A stretch of DNA of 12,525 nt. Origin: Gammaproteobacteria bacterium (GTDB lineage: Bacteria > Pseudomonadota > Gammaproteobacteria > Steroidobacterales > GCA-2729495). The stretch's first letter is position 1. Every line of letters starts with the position of its first letter. The stretch lies in the NCBI GenBank assembly GCA_023150055.1, contig JAKLLP010000025.1:1-12525 (forward strand), given 5' to 3'. Shown one piece after another: positions 88 through 12,525 of this stretch. Both the position numbers and the translations under genes were made by a program. The notes beneath the pieces were generated by a model. That model searched no databases. It saw nothing but the letters and a program-made list of their open reading frames with translations, and had not been told where the DNA came from.

Positions 88-1290
88 CTACGCGGTCACC
101 GCTCGCTCTGTCGGCGGAAAGCTCACCATGTAGCAGTGGTCCTCCAGTCTCGTGATGGCCGCCGTAACCGGGCGCCCTGCGACCCGCACCTCGATGTCGC
201 GCGCGCGGCCGGCGATGCGCAACCCGAAGATGTGCCCGGCCAGGTCGGCCGGCTCGAGCCGTGCATAGCGGATACCGTCGGGGCGGAAGTCTATGTACTC
301 GCCGTCAGCCGCAATTGCAACATGGTCGCGAAGCACGAGGTAGTCGAGCAATGTCGACAATGGCGAGAGCTTGAGCGCACCTTGCTCGTAGCGGCTGCGC
401 AGATTTGCGAGCGCTGCCCGCGTCGCGGGCGGAATGTGCGTTGCCTCTCCCCGGCGCGCGGCCCGGCGCTTGCCGAGGTGAGAATACACGATGCAGGTTC
501 CCTCCCGGGAAAGCAGCCGATCCACGTTGTCGGGCGAGATCAGTGTCGCCAGGCCGTCGATGTCGGCATCACGCCAGGTGCCATAGCGGCGAAAGCAGTA
601 GAGCGTGCGACCGTCTGCGAACCTGTGGGGGTAATACTGCCGGTTCACGTTCGCGTTGTGGGTGACCATGCCGCGGCCCCAACGCACGAGCCCGAGCCGC
701 GACAGCCCGTGCCAGGCGAGCAGGAAGGCCGTTCTCGATGCGGACGCATGGCCACGCGCATACCACACCCGTGGTGATACCGGCACGTCCTGCCCCAGGA
801 TCGGGGTCAGCCGCCCGTCCCAGACGTAACGGATGCCGAGTTCGGCCACGAGATCGAGCGTATAGGTGAAGCTCTCGTAGACGACGCCGGAGCCGTCGAC
901 GTGTCGCGGCGTCGAGCCCTCGGTCGAGTTGTGCAACAAGTTCTGCGGGTGGGTCGAGTGGTCCACCCAGACGCGCGGCGACAGCCCATGAGCCTCGAGC
1001 AGCTCCATCGCCTGCACCGCGTCGTCGCGGTCGAAGCCCCGTTTGCGCGCATGCACGTAGTCGCCCCAGCCGTGGAGGGTGTCGTGGTAGTGGGCGGCAG
1101 CGATCTCCGGGTTGTCGTGCAGATTGACCTGCCCGGGCAGATTGCAGTTGAAGGAACGCACGAACAGCGCATCGCCGAAAGGAAGCGACATCTCGTCCCA
1201 GATGGTCGAATGCAACTCGGCCCAGTCGGCTGCGCCGGTGTTGTCGGGGTCATTGGAGATCGTCAACCAGGCACGGTACGGCGGCGGCAT
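88..1290 (-). CDS. Polysaccharide deacetylase-like (NodB-fold) protein, 400 aa
   Basis: Probable carbohydrate-deacetylase-fold protein. The frame stays open to 1569, but I place the start at ATG 1290 because the residues upstream are low-complexity Arg/Ala/Pro-rich. The protein proper opens with a hydrophobic strand and an acidic pair (A-W-L-T-I-S-N-D14-P-D16), as in the first motif of carbohydrate esterase family 4. A histidine cluster, D110-H111-S-T-H114-P, resembles the metal-binding H-[ST]-x-x-x-H motif but with altered spacing. Other candidate site residues are H73-G-W-G-D and Y269-S-H271-L. The last ~90 residues look like a small beta-rich domain. No signal peptide is visible, so a cytoplasmic role on precursor glycans is plausible. 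The motifs are divergent, so the protein could be a non-catalytic or repurposed NodB-fold member. It sits 178 bases downstream of the secreted-protein gene and abuts the GNAT-like gene. Confidence 0.6.
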   Translation of the reverse strand: MPPPYRAWLTISNDPDNTGAADWAELHSTIWDEMSLPFGDALFVRSFNCNLPGQVNLHDNPEIAAAHYHDTLHGWGDYVHARKRGFDRDDAVQAMELLEAHGLSPRVWVDHSTHPQNLLHNSTEGSTPRHVDGSGVVYESFTYTLDLVAELGIRYVWDGRLTPILGQDVPVSPRVWYARGHASASRTAFLLAWHGLSRLGLVRWGRGMVTHNANVNRQYYPHRFADGRTLYCFRRYGTWRDADIDGLATLISPDNVDRLLSREGTCIVYSHLGKRRAARRGEATHIPPATRAALANLRSRYEQGALKLSPLSTLLDYLVLRDHVAIAADGEYIDFRPDGIRYARLEPADLAGHIFGLRIAGRARDIEVRVAGRPVTAAITRLEDHCYMVSFPPTERAVTA

Positions 1291-1468: not shown

Positions 1469-2200
1469 CTACTGCCATTTCTGGATTCCGAACACGGCGC
1501 GGCGGGATGCGACCCCCTCCGGCGGGGGCACGCGGCGCAGGTCGAGCCCCAGGATCCAGTAGTCCGCACCGCCCTCGGCCGTCTCGAACAGCAGCGGTCC
1601 CGGCAGCCGGCCGATCTCCCGGTCGCCGTAGCGAACGACCAGAGGCCTCCTTTTCTCCCTGGACGCCAACGACGGCTTCCACAGGTGGTAGCTGACGCTG
1701 AAACGGTGCACGGTGTCGATGCGCTCGACCTCGTGAAACAGGTAGCGGCTGCCCGAGCCGTCCGTGGGCCGGGTCTCGATGCGGAACCGGTCGCCGTCCA
1801 CGTAGAAGGCGACCGTGTTCCTGTTGTTCGACTTGAAGGTCAGGAACTTGACCATGTAATCGACGCTGTCGGGGTTTCCCGCCACGAGTCGCGGCGCGGC
1901 GACCCAGCCGGTCAGGTCGATGGTGAACTCGAGCTGGCCGCGAACCCGCTCCGCGCCCGGCGGCCGGTATTTCCAGGGCTTGCCGAGCATGTAAGAGACC
2001 TGCGGCCGCCACGGCCGACCGTCCGCGGCGCGCTGGCCAGGCGCACCGTAATACGCCACAGCCTCGAAATTCAGCGGCGTCAGCCGGCTGCCTTCGGTTT
2101 GCTTGTACAACTGGATCTGGGCGGGCGCCGTGCCGGCCGCAAGGGCCAGCACCAGCCCGGCGGCGAGCGCACGCGACCACCGGATGACCGGGTTCACCAC
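1469..2200 (-). CDS. Secreted beta-rich protein of unknown function, 243 aa
   Basis: I do not recognise this protein with confidence. From GTG 2200 it has a classic Sec signal peptide: a basic n-region (N-P-V-I-R-W-S-R), a hydrophobic core (A-L-A-A-G-L-V-L-A-L-A-A-G) and an A-P-A|Q cleavage site near residue 27. The mature ~216 residues are rich in alternating beta-strand patterns, tryptophans and tyrosines (e.g. G-Q-L-E-F-T-I-D-L-T-G-W, residues 88-99, and A-D-Y-W-I-L-G-L-D-L, residues 212-221). This would fit a jelly-roll or concanavalin-like carbohydrate-binding or lyase fold, but that is inference. A GGAG element lies 11 bases before the first of two tandem GTG codons. The frame stays open to an ATG at 2344, but that start would bury the signal peptide behind ~48 Arg-rich residues, so the GTG is preferred. 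The likely location is the periplasm or outside the cell, acting on the polymer. Confidence 0.6.
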   Translation of the reverse strand: MVNPVIRWSRALAAGLVLALAAGTAPAQIQLYKQTEGSRLTPLNFEAVAYYGAPGQRAADGRPWRPQVSYMLGKPWKYRPPGAERVRGQLEFTIDLTGWVAAPRLVAGNPDSVDYMVKFLTFKSNNRNTVAFYVDGDRFRIETRPTDGSGSRYLFHEVERIDTVHRFSVSYHLWKPSLASREKRRPLVVRYGDREIGRLPGPLLFETAEGGADYWILGLDLRRVPPPEGVASRRAVFGIQKWQ

Positions 2201-2448
2201 CCGCGCTTTTGCTCCGCCGGGGGCAACACGGGAGCGATCCCCCGATGAACCGCGGCCATCCCACCGCTCGACGGGATCGCATCGAACTGCGACTGGTTCG
2301 CGGCGCACGCGTTCGCGGATATCTCTGATTTGTTCGCTTCTCATCGTACACTGGCGCCTGCAGGGGACCGAGGGTATCACGATGTCCGGGAAGAGCAGAT
2401 GACACTGGCCGACGCGCGATTCGGGCAGCGACGCAGGATGGGCTTGGC

Positions 2449-3282
2449 ATGCTGCCCGATTATCTGATCATCGGCGCCGCGCGCTGCGGCACGACCTACA
2501 TCGCGCAGGTGCTGCGCTCGCACCCCGAGGTCTTCATGGCCCGGCAGAAGGAATTGCATTTCTTCGAGCGCGACTACGACAAGGGCATGGCGTTCTACGA
2601 GTCGAATTTCCCGTCCGACGACACCGGGCAATACAAGGTCATCGGCGAAGCGACGCCCGCCTACCTGTATTTTCCCGAGGTCCCCGAGCGCATCCACCGG
2701 CACCTGCCCGACGCGAAGCTGATCGTCAGCCTGCGTAACCCGATCGACGCCGCGTACTCTGCCTACTGGAAGGCATACTCGGCAGACGAGCGCACGCGCA
2801 GGATGACGTTCGAACAGAAGCTCGAGAAGGAACCCCGTCTGATCGCCGGCGGGCGCTACGCGGAGCAGCTCGCGCGGTACCTCGCGCTGTTTCCGCGCGA
2901 GCGCATTCACGTGATCGTGTACGAGCAACTCGTGGCCGGACCGGAGGCCGAGTTCCGCCGCCTGTTTCGCTTCCTCGGCGTCGCCGAGGATTTCGTCTCA
3001 CCCTACATGACGCAGAGAATCAACGCATCCGGGATGAAAAACGGGCGTTCGCGGCTGCTGCGTTATGCGCACCGCCTGTTCTTCCGTTACATCGAGGTGC
3101 CGTCGATCGCGGGCTGGATCGAACGCATCAACTTCCTGCCGATCCCGCCGATGGCGCCGGCCACCCGGCAGCGCCTGCAACAGGAATTTGCCGGCCCCAA
3201 TGCCGAACTCGGGAGATTGACGGGGGCAGACCTGTCGGCGTGGTCCGGCGACGGTCGCGCTACCGTCAGCGACGGCCGGTAA
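2449..3282 (+). CDS. Sulfotransferase (heparan-sulfate-sulfotransferase-like), 277 aa
   Basis: PAPS-dependent sulfotransferase, predicted to move sulfate from 3'-phosphoadenosine-5'-phosphosulfate to a hydroxyl or amine on a glycan in the cytoplasm. The 5'-phosphosulfate loop is G9-A-A-R-C-G-T-T16 at the very N-terminus. The 3'-phosphate site is L94-R96-N-P with S104 (R-N-P-I-D-A-A-Y-S-A-Y). The stretch K34-E-L-H-F-F, then Y43-D-K-G-M-A-F-Y, G66-E-A-T-P-A-Y and V78-P-E-R-I-H follows the order seen in animal heparan sulfate 3-O- and N-sulfotransferases, where the Glu of K-E-x-H-F-F is the catalytic base; E35 is the candidate here. Arg12 sits where many family members have Lys. ATG 2449 is preceded by AGGA at a spacing of 10. 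The gene is alone on the plus strand and its last 17 bases overlap the convergent wecG-like gene. The exact acceptor cannot be told from sequence. Confidence 0.85.
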   Translation: MLPDYLIIGAARCGTTYIAQVLRSHPEVFMARQKELHFFERDYDKGMAFYESNFPSDDTGQYKVIGEATPAYLYFPEVPERIHRHLPDAKLIVSLRNPIDAAYSAYWKAYSADERTRRMTFEQKLEKEPRLIAGGRYAEQLARYLALFPRERIHVIVYEQLVAGPEAEFRRLFRFLGVAEDFVSPYMTQRINASGMKNGRSRLLRYAHRLFFRYIEVPSIAGWIERINFLPIPPMAPATRQRLQQEFAGPNAELGRLTGADLSAWSGDGRATVSDGR

Positions 3283-4015
3283 CGCGCGCGACGAGGACTT
3301 TCCACGCGAACCGCGGCAACGCGGTCTGGCGCAGCAGGCGGCGCGGTTCGGCCAGCAGCCGGTACAGCCACTCGAGGTGCAGGCGCCGGAAGGCCGCCGG
3401 TGCGCGCCTGACCTTGCCGACCAGCACGTCGAACGTCCCGCCGACACCCTGGCAGACCCGCACGTCGAGCTGCGGCAGGTACTGCTTCATCCACAGTTCC
3501 TGCCGCGGACTGCCGAGCGCGACGAACAGTATCTGCGCGCCGGAGGCGTTGATCTCCTCGACGAGCGCCGGCATGTCCGCCTCGCCGACGTAGCCGTGCC
3601 GGTGTCCCGCCACGCGCAGGCCCGGGTAGCGCTCGACGAGCACCTGCGCCGCGCGTTCGTTGACCTCCGGCGTCGCGCCGTACAGGAACACGGCGTGGGC
3701 CTTCCCGGCGGCCCGGGCGCAGATCGCCGGCATCAGCTCCGAGCCCGGCACCCGCTCGAGACGCCGGCCGAGCAGCAGGCGAACCGCGACCACCACGCCG
3801 ATGCCGTCCGGGATCAACAGCCCCGCGCCGCGCAGGCTCTCCCGCACCAGGGAGTCCGTCTGCGCCTTCATGATCTTCTCGGGATTGACGGCGAGCACCG
3901 TCTGCGGACGGCCGCCCGCGATCATGGACTCGACCGCGTCCAGGGCGCCCGCCATGTCGATGCAATCGACCGGCACGCCGAAAATTTCCACGCGTTCAGG
4001 GGGTACCGCTGGCAC
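3266..4015 (-). CDS. WecG/TagA/CpsF-family glycosyltransferase, 249 aa
   Basis: Member of the GT26 family. Characterised members transfer N-acetylmannosamine or N-acetylmannosaminuronic acid to a polyprenyl-diphosphate-linked GlcNAc at the inner face of the membrane. Family landmarks appear in order: V43-N-P-E-K-I near the N-terminus, the L-I-P-D70-G-I-G segment with the conserved Asp, F110-L-Y-G-A, A166-L-G-S-P-R-Q-E-L-W-M, and G190-V-G-G-T-F-D-V-L-V-G followed by R-R-A-P and an L-E-W-L-Y-R-L helix (214-220). The length is normal for the family. The start is GTG 4015, 9 bases after the methyltransferase stop, with no clear Shine-Dalgarno element close by; GTG 3991 is an alternative. It is the last gene of the five-gene minus-strand operon, and its 3' end overlaps the convergent sulfotransferase gene by 17 bases. 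The donor sugar cannot be assigned from the sequence. Confidence 0.9.
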   Translation of the reverse strand: MPAVPPERVEIFGVPVDCIDMAGALDAVESMIAGGRPQTVLAVNPEKIMKAQTDSLVRESLRGAGLLIPDGIGVVVAVRLLLGRRLERVPGSELMPAICARAAGKAHAVFLYGATPEVNERAAQVLVERYPGLRVAGHRHGYVGEADMPALVEEINASGAQILFVALGSPRQELWMKQYLPQLDVRVCQGVGGTFDVLVGKVRRAPAAFRRLHLEWLYRLLAEPRRLLRQTALPRFAWKVLVARVTGRR

Positions 4016-4024
4016 TGCGCGAGG

Positions 4025-4633
4025 TCAGACCTTCTCCAACAGCACGACCTTGCCGCCGGCGACGCCCGGCAATACATACCGGGTGCGCACGCGCTGCAGC
4101 CCCACCCCGCCAATCAGCCGGTCGAACTCGGCGACCGACAGCGTCGTCTTCCGGCGGCCGCGCACGATGCCGTACAGGTTGGCGAGCGACCAGCGCGTCG
4201 GGTAGGTCGCAATAAGCCACCGCGAGGTCACGCGACGCAGCTCGGCGAACATCGCCGGCAGGCGGCCCTTGTCGATGTGCTGGACCAGCGAACAGCACAG
4301 CACCAGATCGAATTCGTCGTCGGCGAACGGCAGGTCGAAAAGATCGCAGGCTACCGTCCGGATGTCGTGACCCGGGAAGTACGCGCGAATGTCCTCGAGC
4401 CGCCCGTCGGTGATGTCCGCACAGGTGACCTGCCAGCGAAGCAGCAGGTCGACCATGCGGCCCGCACCCGACGGACAGTCGAGCACCCGGGTTGGCGGCG
4501 CCATCCGCTCCGCCTCATCGAGCAGTGCCTGTATGCAGCTTCTCTGACGACGATGGGTGAGGACATTCGCACCGATGCGCCATTTGCTGAAGTTCTCGCC
4601 CCGGAACAGGCTGGGCTCGGCGAGTTTTTTCAT
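4025..4633 (-). CDS. Class I SAM-dependent methyltransferase, 202 aa
   Basis: Small methyltransferase of the type-11-like class. The SAM-binding motif I is V50-L-D-C-P-S-G-A-G-R59. An acidic residue follows at the end of strand 2 (A72-D73-I-T). The post-motif region is C96-D-L-F-D-L-P-F-A-D-D-E-F-D-L-V-L (96-112), and a Q118-H motif precedes the next helix. The family uses S-adenosylmethionine to methylate O, N or C atoms; in a polysaccharide locus a sugar or sugar-lipid acceptor is the natural guess, but nothing in the sequence proves it. ATG 4633 is well supported by TAGGA seven bases upstream. The gene lies 43 bases after the GT4 gene stop and 9 bases before the WecG-like start, consistent with one operon. 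The length is near the minimum for a complete Rossmann methyltransferase domain. Confidence 0.85.
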   Translation of the reverse strand: MKKLAEPSLFRGENFSKWRIGANVLTHRRQRSCIQALLDEAERMAPPTRVLDCPSGAGRMVDLLLRWQVTCADITDGRLEDIRAYFPGHDIRTVACDLFDLPFADDEFDLVLCCSLVQHIDKGRLPAMFAELRRVTSRWLIATYPTRWSLANLYGIVRGRRKTTLSVAEFDRLIGGVGLQRVRTRYVLPGVAGGKVVLLEKV

Positions 4634-4676
4634 CGCGGCATCCTACCAGAACCCCCGTCCACACCAACGGCACGGC

Positions 4677-5732
4677 TCAGATGGCCGCATAGATCTTCTC
4701 GAGCCGGGCGGCAACGCGCGAGGCACTGAAGCGCTCGCGGGCGTACGCCCGGTTGAAGGCGCCGATCTCGTCGCGCCGTTTGCGGTCGCCGACCAGCGGC
4801 AGCAGCAGCGCGGCGAGTTCGGCCGGGTCGCGGCTGTCCGTGATGCGGCCCATGCGGCCGTCTTCGAAGAAGTCGCGCAGGCCGCCGACGGCGCGCGTCA
4901 CGACGGGCAGGCCCCAGGCCATCGCTTCGAGCACGGCGTTGGGCATGCCCTCGCCGTAGCAGGTCGGGAAGAAGTTGTCCGCGTCGAGAAACGCAGCCCG
5001 CTTGGCGTCACCCTCCACGTGGCCGATGAAGTGGACGCCGGGAAGCGCACGTTCCCCGACCAGCTGCTCGGCGCGCGACCGCTCCGGGCCATCCCCCGCG
5101 ATCGTCAGCCGGCAGTTCGGGTGCCGCTCGCGCACCCGGGCATACGCCTCGATCGCCTCGACGAGCCCCTTCTCCCGATCGAGCCGGCTCATGAACAGGA
5201 GGTTGACCGGCGCACGATCCGACCCGGACGCCGGTCTCGGCGCCTCGCACGCGGCGTCTTCCACGACCGTGGTCTCCACCTGTACGGGTGTCCTGATGCC
5301 CCAGGCGGCGAGCTGGGTGCGGAATTCCTCGGCAAGCACCACGAGTTTGCTGGCCCGGCCGTAGACCAGGCGGAACAGCCAGGCCCACTGCGCGGTGATC
5401 CGCTCCGCCAGCGCCCGGTCCCAGCCGCGGAAGAACACCAGCACCGGCAGCCGGTGCGCTCGCGCGATCAGCAGCAGGATGCCGTCACGGACGACCGCCC
5501 TGCGCCCGAGCGACGGGTTGAGGTGCACGAGGTCGAACTGCCCGGTCCGCAGCCGGCGATGGAAAGCCGCGAAATCGCCGAGCAGGCGGGCGGCCGATGC
5601 GCCACGCTCCCCCGCCTGCCGGCCCACCTCGTAATAGACCTTGTCCGCGTCGAGGTGGCTGCGCAGGACGCGATAGTAGTTCGCCACGCCGCCGGCGAGA
5701 TCGAGGCGCGGCACGACGACGAGCACTTTCAC
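4677..5732 (-). CDS. GT4-family glycosyltransferase, 351 aa
   Basis: Retaining GT-B glycosyltransferase, expected to act in the cytoplasm on a lipid-linked glycan using a nucleotide-sugar donor. The N-terminal domain opens V-K-V-L-V-V-V-P with the glycine-rich turn G14-G-V-A-N-Y. The C-terminal donor domain has S182-R-L-D-R-E-K-G-L, A212-G-D-G-P-E-R and the EX7E pair E261 and E269 (Y-G-E-G-M-P-N-A-V-L-E-A-M-A-W-G), followed by P-V-V-T. The frame is open far upstream, but the true start is GTG 5732: AGGAG lies 8 bases before it and the protein begins exactly at the first beta strand of the fold. Starting further upstream would read through the preceding sulfotransferase gene in the wrong frame. 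It lies 32 bases after that gene. The sugar added is unknown. Confidence 0.9.
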   Translation of the reverse strand: MKVLVVVPRLDLAGGVANYYRVLRSHLDADKVYYEVGRQAGERGASAARLLGDFAAFHRRLRTGQFDLVHLNPSLGRRAVVRDGILLLIARAHRLPVLVFFRGWDRALAERITAQWAWLFRLVYGRASKLVVLAEEFRTQLAAWGIRTPVQVETTVVEDAACEAPRPASGSDRAPVNLLFMSRLDREKGLVEAIEAYARVRERHPNCRLTIAGDGPERSRAEQLVGERALPGVHFIGHVEGDAKRAAFLDADNFFPTCYGEGMPNAVLEAMAWGLPVVTRAVGGLRDFFEDGRMGRITDSRDPAELAALLLPLVGDRKRRDEIGAFNRAYARERFSASRVAARLEKIYAAI

Positions 5733-5764
5733 CGGCGGGGCTCCTGCACGTGGGACGTCGTCGG

Positions 5765-6766
5765 CTAAAGGCGCATGCGCGCCTTCGCCAGCGTGCTCTT
5801 CGCCACGAAGCGCAGACCGCGCCCGAGCTTCAGGTCGAACAGGAAGCGGTTGATCACGTCGAGCAGCGCGTACCAGCCGAGGGCGAGCCGCGACAGCCGG
5901 CGGCTCGGCGCGTCGATACGACACTCGTAGCCATAGTGCCGCAACTCGGAAGCGCAGACCGATTCGATCCTGCGCCGCTCGCGCTCCGACATCCGGGACT
6001 GGTACTTCCTGACGTTGCCCGGCAGTATTTCGCGCGCCCCGGCCGCCGCACCGAGGTTTTCCGACGGCAGGTCCAGCGTCAGCATCTTCTCGTCGAACTC
6101 CACCCCGAGAAACGCCGTCACCCGCGCCAGCGTCTCGGCCGGGCGCTCGAGCAGGTCCTCGTAACGCAGCTCGAGCACATCGCTTGCCGGCAACCCGCCG
6201 AAGTCGCGCCATAGCACCCGCAGCCCGTCGCTCCAGCGCTGTGCGAAGCGGTACATGTTCTTGCCCCAGGCCTTGCGCGCGGAGAGCGCCGCGTCCCTGA
6301 CGTCGCGCACGATGTGGATGATCTTCGCCTCCGGGATCTCCCGCTTGATCAGGGCGAGCCGGGTGGTGTAGTTGGGCGACTTGTCGCCGAGCCAGAGACC
6401 GGGATGCTCCGGCGCCTTTGCTTCCCGCCGCATTATCGGCAGCAGCACGCCGGCGGGGTCGAAGGTCGCGCAACGCGTGTACCACTCCTCCTCGCTGAGC
6501 GTCTCCATGCCCTGCACCGCGCGCACGGCGAAATAATGCGCGCGCATGACGTCCGCGTAGAGCCTCGCAAAGTTCTCGCGCCGCGCCACGTCGCCGTAGC
6601 CCGGCCAGCGCTCCAGCAGCCAGGGCACGAACATCAGTTCCTGGGTGACAAAGATCTGCTCGTGCCGGTTCAGCAGCTTGCGCAGCAGCTTGGTCCCCGA
6701 ACGCGGGAAGCCGACGATGAACAGGATCCGGCGGCCGCCAGCAGGATTTCCTCCCGTGTCGCTCAT
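5765..6766 (-). CDS. Sulfotransferase family protein, 333 aa
   Basis: PAPS-dependent sulfotransferase, predicted to sulfate a carbohydrate or related acceptor. The phosphosulfate-binding loop is V18-G-F-P-R-S-G-T-K26 and the 3'-phosphate site is I152-V-R154-D-V-R with S162. Supporting blocks are T41-Q-E-L, L126-G-D-K-S-P and L200-R-Y-E-D-L-L, all typical of bacterial sulfotransferases of the G-x-P-R-S-G-T type. After about residue 285 a helical C-terminal tail (to 333) extends past the core and could contact a partner or the membrane surface. The ATG at 6766 overlaps the TGA of the upstream sulfotransferase gene (ATGA), so the two are translationally coupled; no strong Shine-Dalgarno element is present. 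The motifs differ clearly from both other sulfotransferases in the window, so it is not a recent duplicate. Acceptor unknown. Confidence 0.88.
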   Translation of the reverse strand: MSDTGGNPAGGRRILFIVGFPRSGTKLLRKLLNRHEQIFVTQELMFVPWLLERWPGYGDVARRENFARLYADVMRAHYFAVRAVQGMETLSEEEWYTRCATFDPAGVLLPIMRREAKAPEHPGLWLGDKSPNYTTRLALIKREIPEAKIIHIVRDVRDAALSARKAWGKNMYRFAQRWSDGLRVLWRDFGGLPASDVLELRYEDLLERPAETLARVTAFLGVEFDEKMLTLDLPSENLGAAAGAREILPGNVRKYQSRMSERERRRIESVCASELRHYGYECRIDAPSRRLSRLALGWYALLDVINRFLFDLKLGRGLRFVAKSTLAKARMRL

Positions 6767-7680
6767 GCCGGCGCCCGGTAGCCGAAGGTCGCGATTTCCT
6801 TCTTCAGCAACGACTCGATGATCGCCCGCCCCGCTCGCGGGATGTGCTCTTTCCAGCGCTCCAGCGTCCGCGCATCGAAACCCCGCTGCGCCTTGCTGCT
6901 GTCACCGTAGTTGGAGCCCACGCCCATCTGCGGCTCGCACATCGCCGGACGGAACTCCAGCTCCAGGAAATCGCAGAGCGCCCTGATCGTCGTCTCCGGC
7001 TCCCGGATGACGTCCTCGAAGCGGAGCAGATGATAGAACGGCTCCTTCGCGTAGGCCGCGTGCACCCGTCCGCTGTGCCGGTACTGCTGGACCGCGTAGT
7101 ACAGCCGCGCGGCCTGCGCGGGCTTCTCGCTGCGCAGTAAGGCGACGCGCGAACGTTTCTCGCTCATCTTGACCATCGATGTGTAGATCGCGCGCGGATC
7201 GCGAACGAGGTGCACGACGCGGCAACCGGGAAACCAGCCGATCAGCGTCGGCGTGTGGGCGATGTTGACCGGGAACTTCGCGCCCGCGACCCTGCGGCCC
7301 GTGCGTGCCGCGTGCTCCTCCAGCAGGATCTGCATCACCGCGCGATAGCTCCGGTCGCTCCGCAGGATGGCTTGCTGCAGGCGTTCAGGGTCGAGGTCGT
7401 CGATGCGGCCGGGCGACTCCTCGATGCGGCGGCCGGGATCGGTCCGCCAGAACGACCCCGCGAGCCGATTGGAGTACATCAGGTCGACGAGCGCACGCAC
7501 GTTGCGGTCGACCGCGAGCGGCCCGATCTCGCGCGCGTGGTGCACGAAATCCTTCTTGATCCAGCGGGGCACGAGGAAATGCAGTTCCGCGAGAATATCC
7601 ACGTCGGGATGGGTCATCAGGATCTGCCTGATCAGCTTCGAGCCGGTCTTCGCGCAGCCGACGACAAAAATGTATTCCAT
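6763..7680 (-). CDS. Sulfotransferase family protein, 305 aa, first gene of the operon
   Basis: PAPS-dependent sulfotransferase. The N-terminal loop is V7-G-C-A-K-T-G-S-K15, carrying the usual Lys at position 11. The 3'-phosphate site is L158-V-R160-D-P-R163 with S168. Other blocks are A31-E-L-H-F, G133-A-K-F-P and L219-R-F-E-D-V. ATG 7680 places the first beta strand (M-E-Y-I-F-V-V-G) at the N-terminus, as expected. The same frame stays open upstream to 9555, but that part is antisense to the heparinase-like gene and is not protein-like. It is the promoter-proximal gene of a run of five minus-strand genes and ends in an ATGA overlap with the next sulfotransferase. Co-translation of two dissimilar sulfotransferases suggests they act at different positions of the same glycan. 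Acceptor unknown. Confidence 0.88.
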   Translation of the reverse strand: MEYIFVVGCAKTGSKLIRQILMTHPDVDILAELHFLVPRWIKKDFVHHAREIGPLAVDRNVRALVDLMYSNRLAGSFWRTDPGRRIEESPGRIDDLDPERLQQAILRSDRSYRAVMQILLEEHAARTGRRVAGAKFPVNIAHTPTLIGWFPGCRVVHLVRDPRAIYTSMVKMSEKRSRVALLRSEKPAQAARLYYAVQQYRHSGRVHAAYAKEPFYHLLRFEDVIREPETTIRALCDFLELEFRPAMCEPQMGVGSNYGDSSKAQRGFDARTLERWKEHIPRAGRAIIESLLKKEIATFGYRAPA

Positions 7681-7736
7681 ACCAGAGGGACTCTGCACAT
7701 GACTGGACGGGGGACCGGGGCCGATCGTGCAACGGC

Positions 7737-7765
7737 TTTCTACTGCAGGTATCATGCCAACGCAA
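7737..7765 (-). promoter_or_regulatory. Candidate promoter for the sulfotransferase operon
   Basis: On the minus strand TTGCGT (7760-7765, 3 of 6 matches to TTGACA) is followed after 17 bases by TAGAAA (7737-7742, 4 of 6 matches to TATAAT). It lies 57 bases before ATG 7680, in a locally AT-richer patch of the divergent intergenic region (7681-7866). It is the best-placed candidate I see for the five-gene operon, but the match is weak. Confidence 0.27.
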
Positions 7766-7870
7766 GCGAAGGCCGGCGAGGCCTCTGATCTCACCGAGTC
7801 GACCCACACCATGCAACGCTCGCCCGCCCGGGAGCCCGGACACCGGCCTGCCCGGCGTCGCCATCGATGA
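7754..7870 (+). CDS. Possible 38-aa upstream ORF coupled to the heparinase-like gene (speculative)
   Basis: An ATG at 7754 opens a 38-codon frame (M-P-T-Q-A-K-A-G-E-A-S) whose TGA stop overlaps the heparinase ATG in the arrangement ATGA (7867-7870). A second in-frame ATG at 7811 would give a 19-residue, Arg-rich peptide. The heparinase start itself has no clear Shine-Dalgarno element, so translation arriving from this frame could help start it. There is only a weak AGG element before 7754, no recognisable domain, and short open frames are common in such GC-rich DNA. It also overlaps the candidate promoter of the opposite operon. It may well be chance. Confidence 0.2.
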   Translation: MPTQAKAGEASDLTESTHTMQRSPAREPGHRPARRRHR

Positions 7871-9744
7871 ACAAGCTGGCATGGTACTGGCGCCGCCTGC
7901 GCGTCATGGGGTTTTCCGAAATCCTCCACCGTCTCGCAGAGGCGGCACGCGGCGCGCGGTTTCGTGTCGACCACGCGCTCGGCATCGCGGCGCGCCGGCA
8001 CCGCGCGCTTCGCGCGGCCGACTTCGCGTTCTGCACCAGCGCCACCCGGCGCCTGCCCAGCCTGCGCTTTGCCAGTGAGTTCGACGCGGCCGCAAGGCGA
8101 GCGCTGCTCGATGGGCACCGGCCCGCGCTCGGCCATGCGTGGCAGTGGCGGGATGCCGCCGAGGCCTGGCACCGCGCGCCGGATACCGGGCGGGCCTGGC
8201 CGCGGTCTTTCTTCGGCGCGATCGACTACCGCGCCGGCAACCCGCACGGCGACGCCCGCGTGACCTGGGAGCCGGCCCGGTTGCAGCACCTCGTCGATCT
8301 CGCGGTGCTGGCCGATACCTCCGCCACGGATCGCGACGCGGCGACCGCGCTGCTCGCCGACATGCTCGCCTCGTGGATGACGCACAACCCGCCCGGCGGC
8401 GGCATCCACTACGTCTCGGCGATGGAGTGCGGCCTGCGCCTGGTGGCCGTGCTCTACGCCGTGGACATCGCCAGGCCGGCGCTGGGTACCCGCCCGGACG
8501 CCTGGCAGGCAACGGCGCAACTGGTGGCCTCGCATGCGCCGCAGATCGCGGGACGACTTTCCCTGCATTCCTCGGCTGGCAACCACACGATCGCCGAGTG
8601 CGTCGCGCTCGTCCATGCCGGCCTGCTGTTCCCGGAGCTGCCCGGCGCGGCCGGCTGGCTGCGCTCGGGGCTCGACCTGCTCGCCTCCGAGGCCGACCGG
8701 CAGGTGCTGCCGGACGGCGGCGGCATCGAGGGGTCGACCTGGTACCACTGGTTCGTCGTGGATCTGCTCGGCCTGGCGCAGGCGCTGCTCGATCATCATG
8801 CACGGCCGGTGCCCGCCCCGCTCCGCGCGGCCGTGCAACGCGGCCGCGGCTTCCTCGCCGCGCTGGCGCCTGGGCCGGAGGGCCTGCCGCGTTTCGGCGA
8901 CGCCGACGACGGCAACGCGCTGTCGCCCCGGTTGCGGATCTCCTGGCCCGACGCGCCGCTGCCGGCGAAGTTCCGCGTGTTTCCCGACTTCGGCCTGAGC
9001 GTCGTGCCGGTGTCGGCGCAACAGGTTCTTTTCCTGCGGCACGGCCCATTGGGTATGCCACCCCTGTTCGGTCACGGCCATGCCGATGCGCTCGCGGTGT
9101 GCCTGCATGGCGACGGCGTGCCGATACTGACTGATACGGGCACGTTCACTTACAGCGGTGATCCGCAGTGGCGCGCTTATTTCCGCGGCACCGCGGCCCA
9201 CAACACGGTGCGCGTCGACGGGCGCGACCAGGCGCGGCAGGACAGCCCGTTCAAGTGGTCCGACCCGTATGCGGCGGAACTGGTCGCGCACACGGTGCGC
9301 CATGACGGCATCATCGTGCTCGAGGCACGGCACGACGGCTACGCCGATCTCGGCGTGATGCATACGCGCAAGGTAATCGTCGTGCCCGACACCCTGGTCA
9401 TCGTCAGGGACACGCTGTCCGGGGCCGGCATGCATGAACTCGAGTTGCACTGGCACTGCGGCGTGGAGCCCGAGCGCGTGGGCGATGCCCTGCGCCTGCG
9501 GGCAGGAGGCGGGAGCGTGCAGATGCGGTTCGCGGACGGCGACTTCGAACTGCATCGTGGTGACACCGAGCCGTCACGTGGCTGGCGTTCGCCCGGCTAC
9601 GGCCGGCGGGAACCGATCACGACCGTCCGGCAGGCGTCGCGCGGCGCGCTGCCGGTGGAATTCACCACCATCATCGAACTGGGCCGAAGCACGGCGTCGC
9701 CCGCCGAGATCGAGCGCCTGCTCGGCCTGGGGCGGCCGCAGTAG
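7867..9744 (+). CDS. Heparinase II/III family protein, 625 aa
   Basis: Member of the heparinase II/III superfamily, whose characterised enzymes cleave uronate-containing polysaccharides by beta-elimination. An N-terminal alpha-helical toroid (to about residue 330) contains W134-E-P-A-R-L-Q-H-L, S235-S-A-G-N239-H240 and D283-G-G-G-I-E-G-S-T-W-Y293-H294, where Asn, His and Tyr are candidate catalytic residues. The C-terminal beta-sandwich carries G402-H403-G-H405-A-D407-A-L, L421-T-D-T-G-T-F-T-Y and F439-R-G-T-A-A-H445-N-T-V-R-V-D, the signature of this superfamily. The length is typical of members found in exopolysaccharide loci. No signal peptide is visible at the N-terminus (M-N-K-L-A-W-Y-W-R-R-L-R), so export is unclear; a cytoplasmic or peripheral role in synthesis is possible. 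The start matches the usual family opening although its Shine-Dalgarno element is poor. It is transcribed divergently from the sulfotransferase operon. Confidence 0.9.
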   Translation: MNKLAWYWRRLRVMGFSEILHRLAEAARGARFRVDHALGIAARRHRALRAADFAFCTSATRRLPSLRFASEFDAAARRALLDGHRPALGHAWQWRDAAEAWHRAPDTGRAWPRSFFGAIDYRAGNPHGDARVTWEPARLQHLVDLAVLADTSATDRDAATALLADMLASWMTHNPPGGGIHYVSAMECGLRLVAVLYAVDIARPALGTRPDAWQATAQLVASHAPQIAGRLSLHSSAGNHTIAECVALVHAGLLFPELPGAAGWLRSGLDLLASEADRQVLPDGGGIEGSTWYHWFVVDLLGLAQALLDHHARPVPAPLRAAVQRGRGFLAALAPGPEGLPRFGDADDGNALSPRLRISWPDAPLPAKFRVFPDFGLSVVPVSAQQVLFLRHGPLGMPPLFGHGHADALAVCLHGDGVPILTDTGTFTYSGDPQWRAYFRGTAAHNTVRVDGRDQARQDSPFKWSDPYAAELVAHTVRHDGIIVLEARHDGYADLGVMHTRKVIVVPDTLVIVRDTLSGAGMHELELHWHCGVEPERVGDALRLRAGGGSVQMRFADGDFELHRGDTEPSRGWRSPGYGRREPITTVRQASRGALPVEFTTIIELGRSTASPAEIERLLGLGRPQ

Positions 9745-9934: not shown

Positions 9935-11167
9935 CTAGGCGCCCGTGACCTCGCGCAGCAGGGCCAGCAGTTTCGCGCCGTTCGCCGCCGCGTCGAAGTT
10001 CGCCTCCGCGATCCGGCGGCCATTCCCCCCGACGCGCAGCGCCGCTGCGGGATCGGCCAGGGCCCGCTGCAACCCCTTCGCGATGCCTGCCGTCGAGCCT
10101 GGCTCGACCAGGAACGCGGATTCGCCGTCGACGAGCAGCTCGGGGATGTCACCGACGCGCGAGGCGATCACCGGCCGGCCGCTCGCGAGGTACTCGCCGA
10201 GCTTGAACGGAAAGCCGCGGTCGGCGAACTCCGAGGCGACCCGCACGACGCAGGGCAGATCGCAGGCCGACAGCGCCTGGAAATACTCGTCATCCGAGAG
10301 AAACCCGAGATAACGAATCCGCGCGGCGTGCCGGGAGGCAGAGATGCGCGCCTCGACCTCGGCCATGCGCGCGGCCATGCCCTTGCCGGTCAGTCGCAGC
10401 TCGACGTTCACATCGTCGTCGGCCACGCGCTCGAAGGCCTCGAGCAGGTACTCGAACCCGTCTTTCTCGGCGAACGTTCCGGCATAGAAGACCCGCACGG
10501 GCGCGTGGAATGGTTCGCTCGATGCGCGCAGCCGCCGCAGGTCGACCGAGACCGGGATGCGGACAATCGGCAGGCGGCCGCGATCGCGGCCCGCGAACTT
10601 CTTCTCGAGGTAGCTCGAGATGACGATCACGCCGTCGACGACACGGTGCAGTCGCCGCGCGACCAGCCGCGACGAGGCGGCCTTCAGGCGCGACAGCCAG
10701 GGCGCAGCCGGACCCACGTTGTAGGCATCCTCGACGATGTCGCAAACGACGCGGTAGCCGTGCAGCCGCGCGTAGAGCAGGAACGGCAGGCTCTCGAGGT
10801 TCGGCTGCCCGTACAGGAACACGACGTTGGCGCCCTGCGCAAGCTGCCGTTCGCGCAGCCAGCGGCAGCCGCCCGCCCAGAAGCGCAGCAGCGCGAGCGG
10901 CAGGCCGGGCCCCGCTTTCAGGTCGGCCCCGACCGTCGTGTACGCCACGCCCTCGTGCGAGCCCTCGAGCCGGGTGTCGTCGCGGCCCGCGTGCCCCTGC
11001 CGCAGCAGCAGCACCGAGGCCGTCATGCCGGGCCGGGCCCGCACGGCGTCGACGAAGAGTTGCACCCGCTTGGTGCCCGCCATGCCGCGCGGATAGAGAA
11101 AATTGCCCATGAACACGACGTTGGTCGCCGGCAGCGCCCGTTCTGCCTCGTTTCCGGCCGCCGTCAT
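9935..11167 (-). CDS. GT4-like glycosyltransferase, 410 aa
   Basis: GT-B fold glycosyltransferase expected to extend the lipid-linked glycan in the cytoplasm. The N-terminal domain shows N16-V-V-F-M-G-N-F-L-Y-P-R-G and, at its end, V183-I-S-S-Y-L-E-K-K, the usual acceptor-domain linker pattern. The donor domain starts at V225-F-Y-A-G-T-F-A-E-K-D-G and includes L259-T-G-K-G, R285-Y-L-G-F-L and F319-P-F-K-L-G-E325-Y-L-A-S-G-R-P-V-I. That last block is the family's nucleotide-sugar site, with E325 the likely second Glu of the usual pair. ATG 11167 overlaps the flippase stop as ATGA, so the gene is coupled to it; no separate Shine-Dalgarno element is evident. The frame remains open further upstream only as a shadow of the flippase gene. 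It ends just beyond the convergent hairpin. Donor and acceptor are unknown. Confidence 0.88.
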   Translation of the reverse strand: MTAAGNEAERALPATNVVFMGNFLYPRGMAGTKRVQLFVDAVRARPGMTASVLLLRQGHAGRDDTRLEGSHEGVAYTTVGADLKAGPGLPLALLRFWAGGCRWLRERQLAQGANVVFLYGQPNLESLPFLLYARLHGYRVVCDIVEDAYNVGPAAPWLSRLKAASSRLVARRLHRVVDGVIVISSYLEKKFAGRDRGRLPIVRIPVSVDLRRLRASSEPFHAPVRVFYAGTFAEKDGFEYLLEAFERVADDDVNVELRLTGKGMAARMAEVEARISASRHAARIRYLGFLSDDEYFQALSACDLPCVVRVASEFADRGFPFKLGEYLASGRPVIASRVGDIPELLVDGESAFLVEPGSTAGIAKGLQRALADPAAALRVGGNGRRIAEANFDAAANGAKLLALLREVTGA

Positions 11168-12525
11168 TTGGGGTTGCGCCGGCGTCGCATCGGCAGGATG
11201 CCACCGGAGGCGAGCTGCCGCAGGTCGATGCCGAGCAGCGCCGCCAGCAGCGCGGCGAGACCCGCCAGCGCGAGGACTTTCGCCACGAGACTCGGCAGGC
11301 CGACGGGTATGTCGACGAAGATGACGGAGCAGGAGGCGGCCGCGGCGCTGCCGAAGGCCAGCAGGGTCCGCCCCCAGCGGTAGGGGACGTGGTACAGCCT
11401 CTGGCTGATCCACATGCTGGCTGTCGCCAGGAAGCCGTAGGAGAGCACTGTCGCGAGCGCCGCCCCGACGAATCCGTAACGGGGGATCAGCAGGAGATTC
11501 AGGGCGCAGTTGACGAGCACACCGGCAACGTTGATCACCAGCCTGTAACCCGACTTCTTCTCGATCTGGATGCCGTAAGTGAAGTAGCCCGTGATAGACG
11601 CGAGGATCGCAGAGGTGACGAGCAGTGGCACTACGACGTAACCGCCCACGAAATCCCTGGTGGTCAGCAGGATCAGGGTTTCCTTGCCGAACAGGGACAA
11701 CACGGCGACGATCATCATCGTCGCGAACAGGTAGTACTCGAAGACCGTGCGGAACCGCTCCTTCGCCCCCTCCTCCCGGAAGCTGCTCATGACCATCGGT
11801 GTCCACGCGCCCTGGAACCCCATCAGGAACAGGTTCACCAGCGAGGCGAGCCGCGCGCCGATGCTGTAGAGGCCGACCTCCTTGAGTTCCCGCAACTCGT
11901 TGATGAACACGCGGTCGAGATACTGCATGCCGTAGAACGATAGCGTTCCCGGCACCAGCGGCAAGCTATAGGCGACCATCCGTCGCAGTAGCGGCCAGTG
12001 GAAGGTCAGCGCGTAGCTGCGCCGGCCCAGGTACAGCGCCACGAAACCGAAGAGGAGCTGGCCGATCGTCTGCCCGAGGTAGACGCCGATGACCCCCCAG
12101 CGCAGGAAGAACACGAACAGGATGCTGAGCGAAGTGCTGACGAGAACATTGCCGACGTGGCAGAGCGCGTACTGCTTCGACAGGAACTGGAACCGCAGTT
12201 GATTGTTCGCGACGATGAAGATCGAGTGCACCCACATGTAGACGAACACCATGACCGCCGTGCGCCGGTCGATCTGGCCGCTGAGCCAGGTGTTTGCCAT
12301 CCAGTCCGTGAATGGCCAGGCGAGCGGAATGAGACATAGGAAAATCGCGACGTTGTAGAAAAGCACCGTGGACGCGATGCGCTTCTTTTCCCCATCGTCG
12401 TCGGTATCGAGGTAGAACCGGGCCACGGCCTGGTCGAGGGCGAGGCCGATCGCTATCGGGGCGATGACCGTCAGCATCGACAGGAGATCCAGCGCGCCGT
12501 AGTCGGCCGGACTGAGGGCGCGCGT
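11164..12525 (-). CDS. Wzx-type oligosaccharide flippase (5' end cut by window edge), at least 453 aa
   Basis: Polytopic inner-membrane protein of the polysaccharide-biosynthesis/MOP flippase superfamily, predicted to move undecaprenyl-diphosphate-linked repeat units across the membrane. The reading frame continues to the right edge, where residues A-L-S-P-A-D-Y-G-A-L-D-L-L precede the first internal Met at 12477; this S-P-A-D-Y-G block is a hallmark of the N-terminal region of such flippases, so the true start lies outside. About twelve hydrophobic segments alternate with short polar loops (for example visible residues 53-71, 89-106, 127-140, 144-166, 263-279, 296-316, 328-347, 351-371, 386-404 and 412-431). 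The C-terminus is strongly basic (M-R-R-R-R-N-P-K), consistent with a cytoplasmic tail. Its TGA overlaps the ATG of the following GT4 gene. Its presence argues for a Wzx/Wzy-type assembly route. Confidence 0.9.
   Translation of the reverse strand, partial: TRALSPADYGALDLLSMLTVIAPIAIGLALDQAVARFYLDTDDDGEKKRIASTVLFYNVAIFLCLIPLAWPFTDWMANTWLSGQIDRRTAVMVFVYMWVHSIFIVANNQLRFQFLSKQYALCHVGNVLVSTSLSILFVFFLRWGVIGVYLGQTIGQLLFGFVALYLGRRSYALTFHWPLLRRMVAYSLPLVPGTLSFYGMQYLDRVFINELRELKEVGLYSIGARLASLVNLFLMGFQGAWTPMVMSSFREEGAKERFRTVFEYYLFATMMIVAVLSLFGKETLILLTTRDFVGGYVVVPLLVTSAILASITGYFTYGIQIEKKSGYRLVINVAGVLVNCALNLLLIPRYGFVGAALATVLSYGFLATASMWISQRLYHVPYRWGRTLLAFGSAAAASCSVIFVDIPVGLPSLVAKVLALAGLAALLAALLGIDLRQLASGGILPMRRRRNPK

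Follow-up and report, generated by a model that had tools for sequence, protein, structure and literature searches.

The xss cluster on plasmid pSYSM of Synechocystis sp. PCC 6803 is the closest characterized counterpart that we found for the locus described here. This Wzx/Wzy-type exopolysaccharide (EPS) cluster has a cyanoexosortase-system protein annotated inside it. It is described as required for production of sulfated synechan, whose reported constituents are limited to Rha, Man, Gal, Glc, and sulfate (PMC8205485). Because deletion of XssE is reported to have left the bloom and the amount of EPS without substantial change (PMC8205485), the role of XssE itself remains putative. Among gammaproteobacteria, Vibrio sp. 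KMM 8419 (PMC11641403) and Cobetia marina KMM 1449 (PMC11766843) are each described with a sulfated capsule of solved structure, with sulfate placed by NMR, and a gene cluster containing sulfotransferase genes. The remark in a first-pass annotation of our sequence that sulfated capsules are rare among described bacteria is thus dated. Several sulfotransferases are also described for a putative sulfated glycosaminoglycan (GAG)-like cluster of Pontiella sulfatireligans, one of them inside the glycosyltransferase cluster (PMC7356697), and for Actinoplanes wps-1, with two inside it (PMC13390465). Chemical analyses have detected sulfated polymers in wastewater granules and microbial mats, and the accounts of them describe genes and producers as poorly known (PMC10483923, PMC9723792). 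In the part of the open-licence PMC literature that our searches covered, we found none that describes a sulfotransferase within a proteobacterial exosortase EPS locus.

Here we analyze a contig from an uncultured gammaproteobacterium. It probably represents part of an exosortase-associated, Wzx-dependent EPS locus with a sulfation module.

Gene content of the window

The window, by which we mean the whole stretch of DNA analyzed (12,525 nucleotides), is one entire contig (C177) of the source genome (G000), whose assembly is 2.65 Mb and 73% complete. It contains the following features.

88..1290, minus strand: putative NodB-like protein according to the first-pass annotation; an orphan with no family match
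1469..2200, minus strand: orphan protein of no family, with a signal-peptide-like N-terminus; GTG at 2200 or 2197 is the likely start, judged by eye
2449..3282, plus strand: ST1, XssA-like sulfotransferase (Sulfotransfer_1/3), 277 aa (Pfam, BLAST, tree)
3266..4015, minus strand: WecG/TagA/CpsF-family glycosyltransferase, XssN-like (Pfam, BLAST)
4025..4633, minus strand: SAM-dependent methyltransferase (profile match)
4677..5768, minus strand: GT4 glycosyltransferase a (GT4a); the real start may be 5732
5765..6766, minus strand: ST2, XssE-like sulfotransferase (Sulfotransfer_3), 333 aa (Pfam, BLAST, tree)
6763..7680, minus strand: ST3, second XssE-like sulfotransferase, 305 aa (Pfam, BLAST, tree)
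7867..9744, plus strand: heparinase II/III (PL12-like) protein, 625 aa (PF07940, PF16889)
9935..11170, minus strand: GT4 glycosyltransferase b (GT4b); exact start unsure
11164..12525, minus strand: Wzx-type flippase (Polysacc_synt); 5' end lost at the contig end

Because the window is a whole contig of a 73%-complete assembly and the Wzx open reading frame is cut at its right end, the locus within it is incomplete. Pfam matches confirm both the WecG and the Wzx assignments of the first-pass annotation. On this 12.5-kb contig, with its partial locus, we saw no Wzy, priming transferase, co-polymerase, or export porin, and no exosortase; the source genome carries two exosortases on other contigs (C104 and C222). 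APS kinase, the PAPS maker, was not found in the 73%-complete source assembly and is present in 4/4 other genomes searched. The top NCBIfam matches of GT4a, EpsE and TIGR03088, both fall far under their cut-offs. Sugar O-methylation is a possible function of the methyltransferase.

Three dissimilar sulfotransferases

ST1, ST2, and ST3 are complete open reading frames, and each exceeds the curated cut-offs of both PF13469 and PF00685, in agreement with the earlier reading of three sulfotransferases. Each retains an intact loop resembling the 5'-PSB (GAARCGT, GFPRSGT, and GCAKTGS, respectively) and a motif resembling the 3'-PB (RNPIDAAYS, RDVRDAALS, and RDPRAIYTS). As had also been noted, they are mutually dissimilar: ST2 and ST3 have ~23% identity, and ST1 gives short, weak matches to either. 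In a 27-row tree, the ST1 group is split from the ST2/ST3 group with 100/99 support; ST1 falls with XssA (100/99), and ST2 and ST3 lie on the XssE side. Pairwise identities agree with this placement (ST1–XssA 29%, 1e-27; ST2–XssE 26%, 2e-20; ST3–XssE 24%, 2e-12). WecG is likewise similar to XssN (30%, 5e-26); between the window Wzx and XssH, BLAST detected no similarity at E≤1e-3. Among plasmid records, the best matches of ST1 are uncharacterized Sinorhizobium and Leisingera proteins (32–34%), which are closer to it than XssA.

The three genes are interspersed with those for GT4a, WecG, and the lyase. The ST3 stop overlaps the ST2 start by 4 bases (ATGA), and the ST1 and WecG genes are convergent, with a 17-base overlap. 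PF00685 has six matches in the 2.65-Mb assembly (five above the cut-off), and three are on the window contig; the chance of three matches on one such contig is P ~2e-6 under uniform scatter, or 4e-4 allowing for the number of stretches. With three different sulfotransferases in a surface-sugar cluster, the organism probably makes a sulfated slime, like some cyanobacteria.

A conserved EPS backbone in related genomes

Counterparts of Wzx (62%), GT4b, GT4a (53%, with an ortholog also in G001), and WecG, spanning 53–63% identity, lie inside ~27 kb of G030. The same ~27 kb holds an ST2 ortholog (48%), a second sulfotransferase, exosortase XrtD, an XrtA-type ATPase, a kinase, and amidotransferases. 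A scan of genome contigs with a two-sequence ST2 alignment, which has limited reach, returned the G030 record alone. Backbone orthologs in G030, G001, G008, and other genomes sit with exosortase or XrtA-type EPS genes, and a UDP-GlcNAc 2-epimerase gene (WecB) adjoins exosortase genes in relatives.

Clusters of at least two stand-alone sulfotransferases are present in nine of the 40 genomes of the source's family, the source genome included and one (G026) doubtful. This count leaves out open frames ≥450 aa, presumed mostly TPR-fused, and joins gaps ≤13 kb; the G026 pair contains a 133-aa frame and looks spurious, and the G155 rows include one frame of 93 aa. At the loci compared, G007 and G009 seem nearly identical, so they do not count as independent. 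All three typed clusters (G018, G014, G024) sit among XrtA/XrtD-type EPS genes. A conserved sulfotransferase adjoining lol-like genes was also found and was judged separate. Within this family, a single conserved EPS backbone can be compared between natural settings that include sulfotransferases and others that do not, and the sulfotransferase clusters suggest possible producers as well as candidate glycan sulfotransferases.

Wzx, WecG, and GT4 genes are common to O-antigen and EPS pathways, and the contig ends hide polymerase and ligase. The sulfotransferases could modify an O-antigen, or some other glycan attached to lipid or protein, and not a free exopolysaccharide or capsule, and a sulfotransferase is described in a proposed O-antigen cluster of Vibrio KMM 8419 (PMC11641403). 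The company that the orthologous backbone keeps in G030, G001, G008, and others argues against this reading, which we consider unlikely.

On the preferred reading, an EPS locus with a sulfation module, the GT4 and WecG-family transferases would assemble a lipid-linked repeat unit. With PAPS as the donor, ST1 (XssA-type) and ST2 and ST3 (XssE-type) may sulfate as many as three different acceptor positions, and a methyl group may come from the methyltransferase. Wzx would then flip the unit, with polymerization by genes outside the window contig, and the heparinase II/III protein may trim the polymer or turn it over, cleaving beside a uronate by beta-elimination. Weighing against this reading are the APS kinase missing from the 73%-complete assembly, the EPS genes and exosortase not seen on this contig, the Wzx that does not pair with XssH, the plasmid matches of ST1 that are closer than XssA, the tyrosyl-protein sulfotransferase folds nearest to ST2, and the seven relatives in which the stretches read beside the heparinase ortholog held no sulfotransferase. 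The earlier proposal of a multiply sulfated polymer is thus retained as far as sulfation of a Wzx-exported polysaccharide, for which gene order, the operon-like overlap, and homology to xss argue; its heparan-like chain is not.

The heparinase-family protein and the nature of the chain

The heparinase-family protein recognized in the first-pass annotation matches PF07940 and PF16889 (Hepar_II_III N and C domains). Its Asn239, Tyr293, and His403 (motif starts 238, 290, and 401) align with the catalytic residues of heparinase III. The Asn-Tyr-His set is intact in 7/7 aligned sequences, the window protein and those of six relatives. By eye, we saw no signal peptide. The heparinase lyase superfamily is described as cleaving uronate polymers, GAGs included (PMC11848413), and the retained residues suggest lyase activity on a uronate polymer. 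Taken with two nucleotide-sugar dehydrogenases on other contigs of the source genome and WecB near the relatives' exosortase genes, they make the suggested uronate and hexosamine content plausible only; uronate in the polymer backbone is itself plausible. It is unlikely that the conserved family backbone, with its lyase, Ugd-type, and WecB genes, contains both uronate and hexosamine and that, in some members, swappable sulfotransferase modules convert it into true bacterial sulfated glycosaminoglycan analogues with their own lyase.

A heparan-sulfate-like polymer would go further, with uronate–hexosamine repeats that are deacetylated and N- and O-sulfated by separate enzymes, and with its own heparinase. 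ST1 matches heparan 3-O-sulfotransferases (3-OSTs; E 3e-22) and NDST (2e-9); its motif KELHFFERDYDKG aligns to AEPHFFDRSYDKG of 3-OST-3, and the E-x-H-F-F motif is kept. The lyase residues, the dehydrogenases, and the relatives' WecB also fit such a chain. However, XssA, whose cluster makes the Rha/Man/Gal/Glc and sulfate product (PMC8205485), matches the same 3-OSTs as ST1 does. The 3-OST/NDST-type match is therefore not diagnostic, and we rejected it as a sign of a GAG acceptor.

The lyase is no better guide. PF07940 has 27 matches, in 20 of the 40 family genomes. In tables read by eye, it lies within ~20 kb of a stand-alone sulfotransferase on the same contig in at least three of these 20 (G000, G018, G024), a lower bound because of contig breaks; four (G003, G004, G032, G190) gave no hit to PF13469 at E≤1e-5. 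Heparinase orthologs adjoin WecG or GT4a in seven family genomes, and the stretches read around them held no sulfotransferase. On these grounds, the presence of PF07940 was rejected as a sign of a heparan-like polymer. Glucuronyl C5-epimerase (PF06662) was found in 0/10 genomes searched, the 73%-complete source genome among them, and none of the Pfam families matched by the window proteins is a GlcA/GlcNAc co-polymerase.

The protein at 88–1290 had been proposed as a NodB-fold deacetylase-like neighbor. Searches of Pfam at E≤5, PF01522 included, and of the PDB at E≤1 gave no match to it, and its AlphaFold model is uninformative (pLDDT 32), leaving the deacetylase unproven. Remote homologs keep motif-like ISxDxD, D-H, and late H residues; ISxDxD is present in two of three aligned sequences, the third of which begins later. 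Besides the source genome, one of 196 genomes of the order (G193) has a homolog, in a locus with amidotransferase-like and deacetylase genes. Across 369 genomes of the class there was one weak match, with two internal stops; one plasmid record, an Alicyclobacillus plasmid, holds a remote homolog, and viral contigs hold none. Nothing shows that the chain resembles animal heparin, and we regard a heparan-sulfate-like polymer as very unlikely.

For ST2 and ST3, tyrosyl-protein (TPST) and CurM/olefin-synthase sulfotransferases are better matches than GAG enzymes. Structure-based comparison, which had been proposed for the sulfotransferases and here covers ST2, agrees: the nearest PDB folds to its predicted model (pLDDT 80) are tyrosyl-protein sulfotransferases, with heparan 3-OST at rank 18. 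These matches would suit TPST/CurM-like enzymes acting on proteins or small molecules as bystanders in the locus, a reading we find most improbable: XssE belongs to a sulfated-EPS cluster and yet hits these same CurM and TPST structures, and sulfotransferase genes overlap here and recur in EPS loci.

Comparison with known systems

With the animal heparan sulfate pathway, the window has in common the family and active-site motif that ST1 shares with 3-OST/NDST; unlike that pathway, it has no proven deacetylase, no C5-epimerase found, and no proven uronate–hexosamine backbone. The Pontiella and Actinoplanes clusters, which by their descriptions resemble the window in their several sulfotransferases, belong to other phyla. 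The Vibrio KMM 8419 and Cobetia KMM 1449 systems are, like the window, gammaproteobacterial surface-polysaccharide clusters with sulfotransferase genes; compared by their descriptions, these capsules differ in being of ABC-transporter type, in their sugars (Rha/Glc and Rha/Man), and in having PAPS genes in the cluster.

XrtD/XrtA (PEP-CTERM) exosortase EPS loci share Wzx, GT4, WecG, and heparinase orthologs with the window, found in relatives with an exosortase, XrtA-type ATPase, or amidotransferase. They differ from it in that the 19 backbone stretches read in relatives held no sulfotransferase, and the window has no linked exosortase.

The xss cluster and the window both combine XssA-type and XssE-type sulfotransferases with a WecG/TagA-type transferase, GT4-like transferases, and Wzx. 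The window comes from another phylum, its Wzx is dissimilar by BLAST, and its contig has no polymerase or priming gene; unlike xss, it has a heparinase II/III protein, a methyltransferase, and three sulfotransferases in place of one XssA-type and one XssE-type enzyme.

Three sulfotransferases, two of them in an operon-like arrangement

The window, contig C177 in its entirety, comes from an assembly (G000) of 2.65 Mb in 517 contigs that is 73% complete. Its genes, from left to right, are:

88-1290, minus strand, orphan protein
1469-2380, minus strand, orphan protein whose start resembles a signal peptide; the gene ends at 1469
2449-3282, plus strand, sulfotransferase ST1, next after the two orphans
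minus strand, WecG, right of ST1
minus strand, methyltransferase, right of WecG
minus strand, GT4a, right of the methyltransferase
5765-6766, minus strand, sulfotransferase ST2, right of GT4a
6763-7680, minus strand, sulfotransferase ST3, right of ST2
7867-9744, plus strand, heparinase II/III, right of ST3
minus strand, GT4b, right of the heparinase
minus strand, Wzx, rightmost gene, cut by the contig end

ST3 and ST2 share four bases (ATGA) and GT4a is close behind, an operon-like arrangement. A 930-aa open reading frame (6763-9555, minus strand) has ST3 at its end; its remainder is antisense to the heparinase gene and was taken as a high-GC artefact. The orphan at 1469-2380 looks secreted and, besides G000, has one weak match in 369 genomes of the class and none among plasmids.

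The three sulfotransferases named by the first-pass annotation were confirmed, each matching both PF13469 and PF00685 above cut-offs (3/3). The strongest PDB match of ST1 was 3rnl (9e-33), a bacterial sulfotransferase; heparan 3-O-sulfotransferases came next at 3e-22, followed by NDST at 2e-9, and KELHFFERDYDKG of ST1 aligns with AEPHFFDRSYDKG of 3-OST-3. ST2 and ST3 matched CurM, olefin-synthase and tyrosyl-protein sulfotransferase domains. An AlphaFold model of ST2 (pLDDT 80) came closest in fold to tyrosyl-protein sulfotransferases, with E values down to 7e-12 but TM scores of just 0.50-0.57; the first heparan 3-OST-3 entry was ranked 18th (9e-6) and NDST1 31st. NoeE was the sole NCBIfam model matched by ST1 and ST2, far under its cut-off, and ST3 had zero NCBIfam matches. 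APS kinase was not found in G000, of which about a quarter is missing; it was present in 4/4 other genomes searched, in frames of 572-603 aa.

The heparan-sulfate analogy

The same annotation had proposed a sulfated glycosaminoglycan-like polymer by analogy with animal heparan sulfate, an analogy that fails as evidence. XssA of the Synechocystis synechan (xss) cluster likewise matches 3-OST-5 (1e-11) and NDST (5e-5), and therefore similarity to heparan enzymes is no pointer to a glycosaminoglycan acceptor. In seven genomes (G001, G003, G008, G035, G190, G007, G009), orthologs of the window's heparinase (41-48%) lie alongside a WecG counterpart at 58-63%, seen in five of them, or a GT4a counterpart at 49-53%, seen in G001, G007 and G009. 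No sulfotransferase was detected in the 19 stretches read, those of the seven genomes included, each at most 20 kb (tblastn at 1e-8 with 27 queries, which weaker relatives would escape), and PF13469, the model used for that search, had no match at E<=1e-5 in the G003 and G190 assemblies. C5-epimerase PF06662 was found in 0/10 genomes searched, and the NodB-fold deacetylase proposed at 88-1290 is unproven. The orphan family of that protein, shared with locus L105 (7794-9206), keeps ISxDxD, D-H and a late H; it also has a member on a plasmid of Alicyclobacillus dauci, and no sugar genes are annotated near that member.

Asn, Tyr and His at heparinase III positions are kept in all seven aligned heparinase proteins (the window's and six relatives). 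Since PL12, 15, 17, 21, 33 and 39 are reported to share this protein's fold and to act on GAGs, alginate or gellan (PMC11848413), the heparinase-type lyase suggests a uronate in general rather than a particular one. Nucleotide-sugar dehydrogenases are present in G000 on contigs C52 and C238, unlinked to the window; WecB-type epimerases adjoin exosortase genes in relatives G024, G022, G027 and G017, and in G030 one lies on the contig of the ST2 counterpart, ~20 kb away. Lyase, dehydrogenases and WecB together make a uronate or hexosamine possible, and go no further.

Sulfotransferases at exosortase loci of the family

A locus in G030 has counterparts of Wzx (62%), GT4b (about 55%), GT4a (53%), WecG (63%) and ST2 (48%), a second sulfotransferase, and XrtD above its cut-off; for its ATPase, kinase and amidotransferases, XrtA-system models were the best or second-best match, below cut-offs. 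Clusters of at least two stand-alone sulfotransferases, counted without open frames >=450 aa and with gaps up to 13 kb joined, occur in 9/40 family genomes (G000 included, G026 doubtful). PF13469 was detected in 33/40 family versus 2/14 control genomes, many matches lying in long open frames rather than stand-alone. In G029 (C162, locus L052, 1603-11479, 43% GC), a span of about 10 kb contains five different sulfotransferases (four by Pfam, the fifth by BLAST to ST1), next to WecG and a gene that by eye looks like a flippase. Two sulfotransferases accompany two heparinase-type proteins, an amidotransferase and an XrtA-type ATPase in G018, a nucleotide-sugar dehydrogenase in G014, and XrtD and WecB in G024. 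The sulfotransferases thus look like variable decorations of exosortase exopolysaccharide (EPS) loci in this family.

The small G000 genome has two exosortases (C104, C222), 27% identical. G155 carries near-identical sulfotransferases plus a repeat-rich large protein, in reversed order, on C35 (L098) and C49 (L099), either a segment duplication or an assembly effect. In three genomes of G000's genus, a sulfotransferase outside any EPS locus seen adjoins lolC/E- and lolD-like genes (L047 1409-2410, on G000 C46; L054 217-1215; L055 8856-9854), with comEC too in G007 and G009; these gene names were assigned by eye.

Comparison with known systems

The closest CHARACTERISED system found is the xss cluster of Synechocystis plasmid pSYSM, the reported maker of the sulfated EPS synechan (Rha:Man:Gal:Glc:sulfate = 1:1:1:5:2; PMC8205485). 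With Xss letters given by gene order in the plasmid record and the list in that paper, XssA resembles ST1 (29% identity, 1e-27), XssE resembles ST2 (26%, 2e-20) and ST3 (24%, 2e-12), and XssN resembles WecG (30%, 5e-26); the window's Wzx had no match to XssH at 1e-3. A 27-row sulfotransferase tree, built only from sequences of the present analysis with animal enzymes left out and numerous long branches, has a 100/99 split between an XssA/ST1 group (7 rows) and an XssE/ST2/ST3 group (20 rows). Deletion of xssA abolished the bloom and suppressed EPS; deletion of xssE did not substantially alter either (PMC8205485). Plasmid searches matched Synechocystis records with ST1 (5), ST2 (4) and ST3 (4). 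Most of the 212 plasmid records matched by ST1 are from Sinorhizobium (77) and Phaeobacter (58), and its best plasmid matches (32-34% identity) are closer to ST1 than XssA is. ST1-like sulfotransferases at 32-34% identity occur on Sinorhizobium pSym-type plasmids and in Leisingera.

None of the open-licence papers listed in our searches described sulfotransferases with an exosortase-type backbone and a lyase in Gammaproteobacteria. Sulfated polysaccharides with gene clusters are published for cyanobacteria (PMC8205485), Vibrio and Cobetia, and putative clusters for Pontiella and Actinoplanes; mat MAGs from two gammaproteobacterial orders carry sulfated-EPS genes (PMC9723792). The window joins these published bacterial sulfated-polysaccharide clusters as a further example.
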